DNA from: Actinomycetes bacterium
Lineage (GTDB): Bacteria; Actinomycetota; Acidimicrobiia; Acidimicrobiales; CADCSY01
Assembly (NCBI GenBank): GCA_025464025.1
Contig: JAODBP010000102.1
Location: 1-41,759, forward strand
Length of the DNA: 41,759 nucleotides
Direction of reading: 5' to 3'
In this document: positions 4,875 through 26,176 of the stretch, piece after piece
Position numbering within the stretch: the first letter of the stretch is position 1
Layout: the number at the start of each line of letters is the position of its first letter
Program-made: the position numbers and the translations under genes
Notes under the pieces: generated by a model
The model's input: the letters and a program-made list of their open reading frames with translations, nothing else
The model's database searches: none
What the model was told of the DNA's origin: nothing

Positions 4875-5810
4875 ATGAAGACGTGGAGACGCCTGGTCGT
4901 CCTCCTCCTCGCCCTGACCCTGATCGGTGCCGCGTGCGGCAGCGACGACGGCGGGACGACGACGGACAACGGCGCCAGCGCCAGCACGGGTGGGGGCAGC
5001 GCGCTCACCGCCAAGACGATCACCGTGGGCTCGGCGAACTTCGCCGAGAGCTCGCTGGTCGCCAGCATGTACGCCCAGGTGCTCGAGCACGCCGGCTACA
5101 AGGTCAAGACCAAGCTCGACATCGGCGCCCGCGACGTCTACTTCAAGGCGCTCGAGGCCGGCGAGGTCAGCCTGGTGCCCGAGTTCGTGGGCTCGCTCAC
5201 CGCCTTCCTGAAGGGCACGGGCGACCCCGACCCCGACACCGCGGTGACCAACCTGAAGAAGGTGCTCCCCGCCGGCATCGAGGTGCTCGACCCCTCGCCG
5301 TCGCAGAGCGCCAACACCTTCGTGGTCACCAAGGAGACGGCCGACAAGTACGGCCTGACCAAGGTCTCCGACCTGGCCGGCAAGGACCTCACCCTCGGTG
5401 GGCCGCCGGAGTGCCCGCAGCGCCCGTTCTGCATGGTGGGGCTGAAGACCACCTACGGCGTCGACTTCTCGAACAAGTTCAAGCCGCTCGACGCCGGAGG
5501 GCCCATCACCAAGGAGGCCCTCTCCAAGGGCGACATCGACGTCGCCCTCCTGTTCACGACCGACCCCGGCATCCCGAAGAACGGCTGGGTCGAGCTCGAG
5601 GACGACAAGCACCTCCAGCAGGCCGAGAGCGTGATCCCCGTGATCCGCAAGGACAACGTCGACGCCGACGTGACCCGCCTCCTCAACGAGGTGTCGGCCA
5701 AGCTCGACCAGAAGAGCTACGTCGAGCTGCTGAGCAAGGTGTACATCGACGGTGACGACGTCGAGGCCACGGCCAAGACCTGGCTGACCGACAACGGTCT
5801 CCTGAAGTAG
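4875..5810 (+). CDS. Glycine betaine/choline-type substrate-binding lipoprotein
   Basis: A 311-aa OpuAC-family binding protein. The signal peptide ends in a lipobox (IGAAC, lipidated Cys21) followed by a Ser/Thr/Gly-rich tether. The mature domain begins with ITVGSANFAESSLVASMYAQVLEHAGY, the hallmark of OpuCC/OsmX-type proteins, and continues with a GARDVYFKALEAGEVSLVPEF-like segment. AAAGGA lies 6 bases before the ATG, a strong ribosome site. As the last gene of the permease operon, it captures substrate outside the membrane. Osmoprotectant uptake is the expected role; no osmoregulatory promoter was recognised. Confidence 0.9.
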   Translation: MKTWRRLVVLLLALTLIGAACGSDDGGTTTDNGASASTGGGSALTAKTITVGSANFAESSLVASMYAQVLEHAGYKVKTKLDIGARDVYFKALEAGEVSLVPEFVGSLTAFLKGTGDPDPDTAVTNLKKVLPAGIEVLDPSPSQSANTFVVTKETADKYGLTKVSDLAGKDLTLGGPPECPQRPFCMVGLKTTYGVDFSNKFKPLDAGGPITKEALSKGDIDVALLFTTDPGIPKNGWVELEDDKHLQQAESVIPVIRKDNVDADVTRLLNEVSAKLDQKSYVELLSKVYIDGDDVEATAKTWLTDNGLLK

Positions 5811-5835
5811 CCCGCATCGCCCGGTCCGGGCGTGG

Positions 5836-5849
5836 CGAACGTACGTTCG
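5836..5849. promoter_or_regulatory. LexA-binding site (SOS box)
   Basis: CGAACGTACGTTCG is a perfect palindrome and an exact match to CGAAC-N4-GTTCG, the core of the Gram-positive/mycobacterial LexA box; with its flanking bases it matches TCGAAC-N4-GTTCGA at 11 of 12 positions. It ends 2 bp before the -10 candidate at 5852 and 15 bp before the preferred start codon, where bound LexA would block initiation. At this base composition roughly 0.03-0.04 exact matches are expected in the window; there are two, both in promoters. Confidence 0.8.
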
Positions 5850-5851
5850 AC

Positions 5852-5857
5852 TACGCT
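5852..5857 (+). promoter_or_regulatory. -10 element of a leaderless promoter
   Basis: TACGCT fits the actinobacterial TANNNT -10 pattern. Seven bases separate it from the GTG at 5865, which puts transcription start at or beside the start codon, as in leaderless mRNAs. No Shine-Dalgarno sequence is present, in agreement. The -35 region overlaps the LexA box. Confidence 0.5.
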
Positions 5858-5864
5858 CGGGCCG

Positions 5865-7283
5865 GTGCGCTGGCGGACCGAGGGTGACGACGGGCAGGAG
5901 CAGCTCTTCGACGACCTCGACCGCCACGTCGGCCGGGGCGAGTTCCGGGGGATGACGTTCCTCCACGTCCGGGCCCGCCGGGTGGTCAACACCCTGCCCG
6001 AGACGTCGCCGTTCGCCTTCCGGCACACGATCAACGCCTACCGGGGCTGCTCCCACGCCTGCTCCTACTGCCTCGACGGCGACACGCCCGTGCTGCTGGC
6101 CGACGGTCGGACCCGGGCCCTGCGCCGCCTGAAGGTCGGCGACGTCGTCACCGGCACCGACGACGGGAAGCCGGTGCCCACCACGGTGCTCGACCACTGG
6201 GCGACCGAGCGGCCCGCCTACCGCGTGACCCTCGGCGACGGCACCGTGCTCACGGCGAGCGCGGACCACCGGTTCCTCACCGAGCGGGGCTGGCGGGCGG
6301 TCCGCGAGCTGGGCCCGGCCGACGTGCTCGTCACCCTCGACGGCACCGACCCGTCGACCGCGGCCTTCCGGGCCGAGAACGGCGTCGTGCGGGTCCAACC
6401 CCTGGGCGAGGAGCGGCGGCTCTACGACATCACCACCGGAACGGGCGACTTCGTGGCCGACGGGGTGGTGAGCCACAACTGCTTCGCCCGCCCCACGCAC
6501 GACTACCTCGGCCTCGACGTCGACGAGGGCTTCGAGCGCGACATCGTGGTGAAGGTCAACGCCGTCGAACGGGTGCGGGCCGAGCTCGCCCCGAAGCGGT
6601 GGAAGGGCGAACCGATCGCCATGGGCACCAACACCGACCCGTACCAGCGGTGCGAGGGGAAGTACCGCCTCACCCGGGGCATCGTCGAGGTGCTGTCCGC
6701 GGCCCGCAACCCGTTCTCGATCCTCACCAAGTCGACGCTCATGCTCCGCGACGTCGAGCTGCTGGCCGAGGCGGCCCAGCGCACCGAGGTGTCGCTGATG
6801 TTCTCCGTCGGCACCCTCGACGAGGAGGTGTGGCGGGCCACCGAGCCCGGCACGCCCCACCCGCGGCTGCGGCTCGAGGCCATCGCCCGGCTGCGCGACG
6901 CCGGGATCCCGTGCGGCGTGCTCATGGCCCCGCTGCTGCCGGGGCTGTCCGACGACGCCGCCGGGATCCGGGCCGTGGTCGCAGGGGCCCGCGAGGCCGG
7001 GGCGTCGCACGTCTCGGGCGGCCCGCTGCTCTACCTCACCCCGCCGGTGCGCGAGGTGTTCATGAAGCGCCTGGCCGTGAGCCACCCGCACCTGGTCGAG
7101 CGCTACGAGCGGCTGTACCAGGGCACCCGGGCGCCGAAGGAGGAGCAGGACCGCGTCCGGGCCATCGTCGACGCCGCCCTCGGCCGGCGACCCCGCACCG
7201 CGAGACCAGCGCCGTTCCGGAAGCCGGTGCCCCGGCCTGCGCCGGTGCCGGAACCCACCGAGCAGCTCTCGCTCGGCGTGTGA
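5865..7283 (+). CDS. Rv2578c-family radical SAM protein (SplB/COG1533-like) interrupted by a mini-intein
   Basis: Radical SAM enzyme related to spore photoproduct lyase-like proteins (COG1533). The cluster motif reads GCSHACSY-C, then 137 aa of intein (6069-6479), then CFARPTHDYLGLD. Removing the intein restores CxxxCxxC followed by FARPTH, the family hallmark. The downstream core is intact, including GTNTDPYQRCE, TKSTLMLRD and an EVSLMFSVGT segment. The precursor is 472 aa from GTG 5865 and 335 aa after splicing. I prefer GTG 5865 (M-R-W-R-T) over GTG 5832 because family members usually begin near 'MRW', a -10 sits 7 bases upstream, and the earlier GTG would lie before the LexA box. A role in repair of damaged DNA is inferred from the family and the SOS box; the substrate is unknown. 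Confidence 0.9.
   Translation: MRWRTEGDDGQEQLFDDLDRHVGRGEFRGMTFLHVRARRVVNTLPETSPFAFRHTINAYRGCSHACSYCLDGDTPVLLADGRTRALRRLKVGDVVTGTDDGKPVPTTVLDHWATERPAYRVTLGDGTVLTASADHRFLTERGWRAVRELGPADVLVTLDGTDPSTAAFRAENGVVRVQPLGEERRLYDITTGTGDFVADGVVSHNCFARPTHDYLGLDVDEGFERDIVVKVNAVERVRAELAPKRWKGEPIAMGTNTDPYQRCEGKYRLTRGIVEVLSAARNPFSILTKSTLMLRDVELLAEAAQRTEVSLMFSVGTLDEEVWRATEPGTPHPRLRLEAIARLRDAGIPCGVLMAPLLPGLSDDAAGIRAVVAGAREAGASHVSGGPLLYLTPPVREVFMKRLAVSHPHLVERYERLYQGTRAPKEEQDRVRAIVDAALGRRPRTARPAPFRKPVPRPAPVPEPTEQLSLGV
6069..6479 (+). other. Mini-intein inserted at the third cysteine of the radical SAM motif
   Basis: A 137-residue in-frame insertion with all splicing blocks. Block A is Cys1 in CLDGDTPVLLADG followed by LKVGDVV. 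Block B is SADHRFLT, with its His at intein residue 67. Block F is RLYDITTGTGDFVADG. Block G is VVSHN, with penultimate His136 and terminal Asn137. The next residue is Cys+1. There is no room for a homing endonuclease between blocks B and F, so this is a mini-intein. Cys1 occupies the place of the third cluster cysteine in the precursor, and Cys+1 takes it after splicing. Nothing essential is missing, so it should splice. Confidence 0.95.
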
Positions 7284-7293
7284 CACTGGCCGG

Positions 7294-7890
7294 GTGGGTC
7301 TGAGCGAGGACGACGTCGGCGACGACCCCATGCCCGAGGTGCAGCGCTGGCTCGACGATGCCGTCGCCGCCGGCGTGGTCGAGCCCTTCGCCATGCAGCT
7401 CGCCACTGCCGGGCCGACGGCGCGCACCGTGCTCCTGCGCGGCCTCGACGAGCGCGGCTTCATGTTCGTCACCAACCTCGGCAGCCGGAAGGCGAGGGCG
7501 TTGGCCGCCGATCCGGCCTGCGCCCTCGTGCTGGTGTGGACGCCGATGTCGCGCCAGGTCCTCGTCACCGGCACGGCCGAGCCGGTGCCCGACGAGGAGG
7601 TCGAGGGCTACTGGCTGACCCGGCCGCGCGACCGGCAGGTCGCGGCGTGGGCGTCGCCCCAGAGCGAGGTCCTGCCCGACCGGGCCGCGCTGGAGGCGCG
7701 GGTGGCCGAGGTCGAGGACCGCTTCGCCGGCGTCGACCAGCTCCCGGTGCCCCCCGACTGGGGCGCGTTCCGGGTCGTGCCCGACAGCGTCGAGCTGTGG
7801 TGCGGGCGCACCGACCGCCTGCACGACCGGCTTCGGTGGCGGCGGTCCGCCCCCGGAGTCGCGTGGATCCGGGAGCGGCTGGCGCCCTGA
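7294..7890 (+). CDS. pdxH: Pyridoxamine 5'-phosphate oxidase
   Basis: A 198-aa FMN-dependent flavoprotein of the split-barrel fold, expected to oxidise pyridoxine/pyridoxamine 5'-phosphate to pyridoxal 5'-phosphate. The FMN-binding segment RTVLLRGLDERGFMFVTNLGSRKARAL lies near residues 48-75. The C-terminal signature VELWCGRTDRLHDRLRW (from residue 166) and the closing W-x-R-ERLAP are present. Length and order match PdxH. It starts at GTG 7294, 10 bp after the radical SAM gene, so the two may be co-transcribed; that would put a housekeeping gene partly downstream of an SOS-controlled promoter. A general PNPOx-family enzyme is the only serious alternative. Confidence 0.9.
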   Translation: MGLSEDDVGDDPMPEVQRWLDDAVAAGVVEPFAMQLATAGPTARTVLLRGLDERGFMFVTNLGSRKARALAADPACALVLVWTPMSRQVLVTGTAEPVPDEEVEGYWLTRPRDRQVAAWASPQSEVLPDRAALEARVAEVEDRFAGVDQLPVPPDWGAFRVVPDSVELWCGRTDRLHDRLRWRRSAPGVAWIRERLAP

Positions 7891-25652: not shown

Positions 25653-26114
25653 CTACGCGACCGGGCTCCCGGGGGCGGTCCACCGGCTGCGAACGCTGCC
25701 CTGCCGTTGGTAGGTGCGGCGACGGTGACAGTTGGCGCACACCACCTCGCACTTCTCGATCTCTCGTTGGACGGCGGCGAGGTTGTCTCGGCTGACGAGT
25801 CCTGAGACGTTCCGCACCTTGTCCCTGAGGTGGTCGAACTCCAGGACGACGGGGTCGTCTTCACCGCAGTCGACGCAGGGGTGTTCGAACAGGTAGCAGC
25901 GGATCCATTCAGAGATCTCGGCTCGCAGGCGGCGGCTTCGAGCCCGGATCTGAGCGTTGTGCCGCTTCCTGTTGTCCTGGTGGTAGCGCCGATTGCACTC
26001 GCGGCAGTCGTACTGGCGACCGTCGGCAGCCTTGCTGAGCCGGTTGAAAGCGTCGAGTGGTTTCAACTCACGACACGAGGAGCAGCGCTTCTCGTTCGGG
26101 ATGTCCGCTGACAT
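25653..26114 (-). CDS. HNH endonuclease with N-terminal zinc ribbon, LexA-box controlled
   Basis: A 153-aa protein. Cys11-x2-Cys14 and Cys37-x2-Cys40 form an N-terminal zinc ribbon with the 'KRCSSC...CREC' pattern. A basic helix (residues 44-68) follows. The HNH fold uses Cys80-x2-Cys83, EFDHL with His95, and CANCHRRRT (Cys126, Cys129, His130). It should cut DNA using a metal ion. GC content is clearly lower than in flanking housekeeping genes, pointing to acquisition. TATACT and an exact LexA box lie 42-62 bp upstream, so it is expected to be induced by DNA damage. An AAGGGA ribosome site precedes the ATG by 5 bases. Role unknown: nuclease of a mobile remnant or an SOS effector. Confidence 0.85.
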   Translation of the reverse strand: MSADIPNEKRCSSCRELKPLDAFNRLSKAADGRQYDCRECNRRYHQDNRKRHNAQIRARSRRLRAEISEWIRCYLFEHPCVDCGEDDPVVLEFDHLRDKVRNVSGLVSRDNLAAVQREIEKCEVVCANCHRRRTYQRQGSVRSRWTAPGSPVA

Positions 26115-26155: not shown

Positions 26156-26161
26156 AGTATA
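26156..26161 (-). promoter_or_regulatory. -10 element of the HNH gene
   Basis: Read on the minus strand this is TATACT, one base from the TATAAT consensus and striking in GC-rich DNA. It predicts transcription from about 26149, giving a 35-base leader before the ATG at 26114. Confidence 0.6.
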
Positions 26162-26162
26162 T

Positions 26163-26176
26163 CGAACGTGCGTTCG
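26163..26176. promoter_or_regulatory. LexA-binding site (SOS box) of the HNH gene
   Basis: CGAACGTGCGTTCG is an exact CGAAC-N4-GTTCG match, and 11 of 12 with flanks. It lies one base upstream of the TATACT -10, the same geometry as the radical SAM promoter at 5836. It starts 3 bp from the CsaA-like gene's last codon, in the HNH promoter. Confidence 0.82.

Follow-up and report, generated by a model that had tools for sequence, protein, structure and literature searches.

As listed in Table 1, a gene for a radical S-adenosylmethionine (SAM) enzyme lies on the forward strand of contig JAODBP010000102.1 from an Actinomycetes bacterium (the whole contig of 41,759 nucleotides is called the window below), and it was found to be interrupted by a sequence with all the marks of a mini-intein. 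The radical SAM motif of the precursor reads CSHACSYC, and the insert starts at its third Cys. An earlier sequence-only reading of this DNA had placed a mini-intein exactly at the third Cys of CxxxCxxC. This was confirmed by the sequence, the homologues, and the fold, and the coordinates and residue numbers given in that reading all check out. The sequence Cys-Phe-Ala-Arg-Pro follows directly after the C-terminal His-Asn of the intein, and excision in silico leaves 335-aa joined exteins with an intact CxxxCxxC. The protein belongs to the radical SAM superfamily, having this motif and matching PF04055 with 50.1 bits (Pfam gathering score, 29.5). The closest named locus, L001, is from an Acidimicrobiales metagenome assembly and shows 90% identity. 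An alternative GTG start codon exists upstream at 5832, but it is disfavoured because an SOS box (5836-5849) covers its first codons and because the database entry for this protein, P0002, is 472 aa long.

The intein N-terminal model TIGR01445 matches above its cut-off. The residue set of a class 1 mini-intein (Cys1, block B His, penultimate His, terminal Asn, and Cys+1) is complete, as the sequence-only reading had claimed and the alignment bears out, while Cys1, His-Asn, and Cys+1 are kept in all of the 120 intein-bearing proteins listed. In a fold comparison, the predicted model shows the Hedgehog/intein (HINT) fold, which it has in common with the mini-inteins of Mycobacterium tuberculosis RecA, NpuDnaB, and Ssp DnaB. 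These three use class 1 splicing chemistry. On the other hand, they have other hosts and insertion sites, and their identity to the window's intein is 20-28%. No homing endonuclease model of NCBIfam or Pfam matched the 137-aa insert at an E-value of 0.001. The same 137-aa form was found in eight proteins, the window's included, with 72 to 100% identity and constant length. In a 53-row tree, these endonuclease-free inteins form one clade of eight (support, 98/93), and P0122, the nearest intein-free protein of that tree, is sister to the clade.

Table 1. Positions of the gene, the intein, and the associated elements in the window.
Feature	Position	Strand	Basis or detail
SOS (LexA) box CGAACGTACGTTCG, perfect palindrome	5836-5849	+	Exact match and conservation among homologues
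TAnnnT -10-like element TACGCT	5852-5857	+	Immediately behind the box, 7 nt ahead of the GTG
Precursor gene, 472 aa and stop codon	5865-7283	+	Frame from GTG 5865 to the stop codon at 7281-7283; P0002 has the same length
N-extein, 68 aa, with the first and second motif Cys (codons 6048 and 6060)	5865-6068	+	
Mini-intein, 137 aa, no homing endonuclease	6069-6479	+	Splicing residues, intein fold, TIGR01445
Intein residues	Cys1, 6069-6071; block B His67, 6267-6269; block F Asp120, 6426-6428; His136-Asn137, 6474-6479		
C-extein, 267 aa, first residue Cys+1 = third cluster Cys (6480-6482)	6480-7280	+	Radical_SAM PF04055; spore photoproduct lyase fold
Tail QLSLGV, like the sliding-clamp motif of DNA polymerase IV	7263-7280	+	Pattern counts in relatives

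What kind of enzyme is the host? The best NCBIfam match of the precursor is NF038136 (intein-containing Rv2578c family radical SAM protein; E-value, 8.4e-166). This model bears out the statement in the sequence-only reading that intein-bearing family members were already known. It describes the same kind of host, and P0120, a listed relative with an intein at the same site, carries that name. However, the window's protein reaches a score of 553 of the required 700, and its intein has 137 aa without an endonuclease. Since the score is below the curated cut-off, the protein is termed Rv2578c-like here and not a family member. The PA0069 radical SAM model NF033668 (cut-off, 360) gives 218.1 bits for the precursor and 235.5 for the joined exteins. 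By fold comparison, the host enzyme resembles spore photoproduct lyase, although the identity is 15% and the joined exteins score only 19 of the 400 required by TIGR04070. A sequence search of solved structures at an E-value of 0.1 matched inteins and no radical SAM enzyme; only the fold comparison gave one. The available part of a Streptomyces phage paper describes integration into an Rv2578c-family gene, annotated as SplB-like, in several strains. A literature search found no paper joining Rv2578c with LexA or with an intein.

Is the intein a fixed part of this gene? The genome loci and the window gave 47 sequences, and the extein tree has 43 rows after removal of four duplicates. Twenty-nine rows are intein-free (including the distant Rhizobium outgroup L016), eight have a mini-intein (<200 aa), and six have a large intein. 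The "no intein" state changes 11 times on this tree, with eight of the changes forced by well-supported branches. The intein states cluster no more than shuffled labels do (11 changes versus a mean of 12.0; 161 of 500 shuffles were as low). When the joined exteins served as the query, in a search that takes proteins up to 1.75 times the query length and thus excludes large inteins, 120 proteins were listed: 10 known intein-bearing ones and 110 new ones in which no splice junction is present. FARP follows the third Cys in 109 of these 110. The endonuclease-type domain PF14528 is present in 37 of the 120 intein-bearing proteins listed. The distances of inteins and exteins are weakly correlated (r = 0.37 for 14 rows, a value reached in 19 of 2000 permutations). 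Because of the 11 state changes and the common intein-free homologues, the third-Cys site is, to judge from the sequences compared, a conserved target that has been repeatedly invaded and vacated.

The gene has an SOS box in its promoter region, as expected for a member of the actinobacterial LexA regulon, and LexA would probably bind at 5836-5849. The TACGCT element and the GTG start codon may form a leaderless-type promoter. The sequence-only reading had noted the box, and the exact match proved to be conserved in homologues. For this count, the Rhizobium sequence L016 was removed from the 43 rows, and upstream sequence was available for 41 of the remaining 42, the window included (L009 was left out). 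A perfect GAACN4GTTC was found upstream in 38 of the 41 homologues. The remaining three have a box with one mismatch, where sites with a -10 element behind them were preferred. In 38 of the 41, a TAnnnT element lies close behind the box and the start codon is 22-30 nt from the first base of the box. Judged by sequence, this is the spacing of a leaderless promoter with an overlapping repressor site. As a control, a perfect box occurred in 21 of 7290 stretches of equal length drawn at random from these loci. In a phylum-level survey (115 of 246 genomes matched), the best 30 loci include 25 with a perfect box, four with one mismatch, and one with none; L073 duplicates L004 among these loci. Thus, the packing of box, -10 element, and start codon is nearly fixed in most of the Rv2578c-like genes examined (L001-L076), whether the intein is present or absent. 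The available part of a Streptomyces venezuelae LexA regulon table has one radical SAM gene, vnz_31145, whose membership in the Rv2578c-like family could not be told from it.

A second SOS-like box was noticed elsewhere in the window (26163-26176), and on the minus strand it is followed by TATACT (26156-26161, by eye). It precedes a 153-aa open reading frame on the minus strand (25653-26114) with a weak HNH endonuclease match of 21.0 bits (Pfam cut-off, 21.4).

The phylum-level survey also revealed same-site inteins in another family. Four weaker matches from the phylum of L001 (L077-L080) aligned to about 240 profile positions yet extended over 1734-1755 nt. Their proteins exceed the PA0069-family cut-off (441 to 469 bits versus 360); NF038136 scores them slightly higher than the PA0069 model does, yet far under its own cut-off. 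They have inteins of 345-346 aa at the same third Cys, which are identical to the window's intein at 52-57% of the aligned columns. For seven PA0069-family genes, four with and three without the intein, the sequence ahead of the third Cys codon was inspected up to a distance of 400 nt (L084 was excluded for its different motif). A perfect SOS box was found in none of the seven, and a one-mismatch site in one. Since same-site inteins exist in genes without perfect SOS boxes, the intein seems to track the CxxxCxxC target, not SOS control. I considered whether the intein and the box might be one co-evolved unit. This was not supported, as the box occurs with or without the intein and the PA0069-family genes inspected have no perfect box. 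By these sequence comparisons, the SOS box belongs to the host gene, not to the intein. Another possibility considered was that the window's intein descends directly from those of the PA0069 family. A 22-row tree nests it among them (95/84), but this is contradicted by a 124-row tree of the splicing domain, in which the PA0069 inteins are separate (Shimodaira-Hasegawa-like approximate likelihood ratio test, 87), though this larger tree has few columns and supported forks are scarce in it.

The relatives share a conserved C-terminal tail, QLxLG(V/L/I). The pattern Q[LMI]x[LMI][GFL] occurs within the last 14 residues of 67 of the 120 intein-bearing proteins, 65 of the 110 intein-free proteins, and 23 of the 47 loci rows. 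In the controls, 18 shuffled tails and 2 internal stretches carry it, out of 4620 each. According to the accessible parts of two papers, the clamp motif of DNA polymerase IV is QLVLGL and the clamp consensus is QL[S/D]LF. In addition, 113 of the 120 intein-bearing and 92 of the 110 intein-free proteins have QxxLF within their N-terminal 60 aa. By eye, six of seven PA0069-family C-termini have QxxLF(D/E), which is outside the scripted pattern.

With a probability of roughly 85%, the insert is what remains of a homing intein that has lost its endonuclease, and it is spliced out of an enzyme that resembles spore photoproduct lyase and is under SOS control. The homing intein would target the conserved CxxxCxxC-(F/Y)AR site of the Rv2578c-like and PA0069-family radical SAM genes. 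After loss of the endonuclease, the intein would have been inherited in a small clade and presumably kept by purifying selection for splicing. The host enzyme would be made under LexA/SOS control, if LexA binds the box. From the residues, the fold, and general knowledge of inteins, self-excision would occur after translation by the class 1 route, with an N-S shift at Cys1, transfer to Cys+1, and cyclisation of Asn137. Such excision is very likely, by analogy with the family. The product would be the 335-aa enzyme with its CxxxCxxC restored and able to bind a [4Fe-4S] cluster. Regulated splicing would not be required, although some redox sensitivity of Cys-3 and Cys1 is plausible by analogy with the MoaA intein discussed below.

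Several points weigh against this reading. Splicing is deduced from residues and fold. The family cut-offs are missed both for NF038136 (553.2 bits for the precursor versus 700) and for the Rv2578c model NF038135 (362.6 for the precursor and 367.7 for the joined exteins versus 430); the latter cut-off is reached in none of the 198 genomes of L001's order. A comparison of nonsynonymous and synonymous substitution rates (dN/dS) between the window and L001 gave 0.088 for the intein and 0.236 for the exteins, so that the intein protein sequence changes less than that of the exteins, but it comes from one pair only. A loose box scan within the window (up to three mismatches) is at chance, with three sites found and 2.61 expected. 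Thus, the SOS case rests on the exact match, the sole one of the window scan (5836), and on its conservation. Finally, persistence of an endonuclease-free intein amid frequent turnover could also mean that it has a role.

Could the intein serve as a switch? In one reading, a disulfide between Cys66 (Cys-3) and Cys1 (Cys69) would stop the first splicing step under oxidation, and SOS-induced precursor would be stored until thiols are reduced. The precursor has both residues, and Cys1 is the only Cys of the window's intein, which rules out a second intein Cys as the disulfide partner in this protein; two of the seven close 137-aa relatives have an extra one. MoaA is a radical SAM enzyme, and the Pyrococcus abyssi MoaA intein probably sits at the third motif Cys. 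The available parts of two reviews describe a trap of this kind in that intein, where a Cys-3-Cys1 disulfide formed under oxidation blocks splicing. The window's precursor has the same pair of Cys-3 of the N-extein and Cys1. The switch, which the sequence-only reading had put forward, in combination with SOS control, as the novelty, is therefore not new in kind. However, the MoaA intein has another host enzyme, and redox control is reported for MoaA, while it is hypothetical for the window's intein. Furthermore, the Cys-3/Cys1/Cys+1 geometry is automatic, because the insertion precedes the third Cys of a motif that the enzyme needs. The pair is imposed by the insertion site, and its conservation is thus no sign of selection. 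Related same-site inteins also lie in genes without perfect SOS boxes, and 29 of the 43 rows lack the intein. A redox switch is therefore unlikely. Still, the gene may be a useful test bed for redox-gated splicing, with a single intein Cys, suspected partners in the N-extein, and intein-free sisters as a control.

Quite improbable is a gate by metal, in which the CxxxCxxC of the precursor, completed by Cys1, would take up iron, a [4Fe-4S] cluster, or zinc and so restrain splicing. The precursor itself does read CSHACSYC, and inteins are inhibited by metal according to the available part of a review. However, no earlier case of an intein Cys1 carrying a cluster was noticed in a literature search made mostly at the level of titles. 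The predicted model also lends no support to a formed site, as its predicted local distance difference test score (pLDDT) is below 50 at the first two motif Cys (residues 61-66) and just past Cys+1 (residues 210-217). A bolder version is just as doubtful. An SOS-induced, clamp-bound radical SAM repair enzyme would be made as a dead precursor, Cys1 as the third ligand would form a disulfide or a metal or cluster trap with the N-extein Cys residues, and splicing would await reducing power and iron. If true, the SOS response would have an output that passes a chemical check after translation, with enzyme activity starting once the oxygen-sensitive cluster can be built. That the insert is a fixed, non-splicing family domain agrees with the constant 137-aa length in the clade of eight, but it can be set aside, since the splicing residues are invariant, the insertion state switches often on the tree, and the alignment proposed in the sequence-only reading showed that homologues commonly lack the intein and have an uninterrupted CxxxCxxC.

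Under the preferred reading of a spliced, endonuclease-free relic, this is a known kind of mini-intein in a known host class. What is new is the gain and loss of the intein, its same-site relatives in the PA0069 family, and the endonuclease-free clade of eight. The SOS box of the host, the fold of a repair enzyme, and the clamp-like tail are less expected. Together, they point to a little-studied SOS DNA-repair enzyme, which may matter more than the intein.

With no evident tie to repair, the neighbouring genes encode a glycine-betaine-type ATP-binding cassette (ABC) substrate-binding protein upstream (4875-5810) and a pyridoxamine 5′-phosphate oxidase-like protein downstream (7294-7890).
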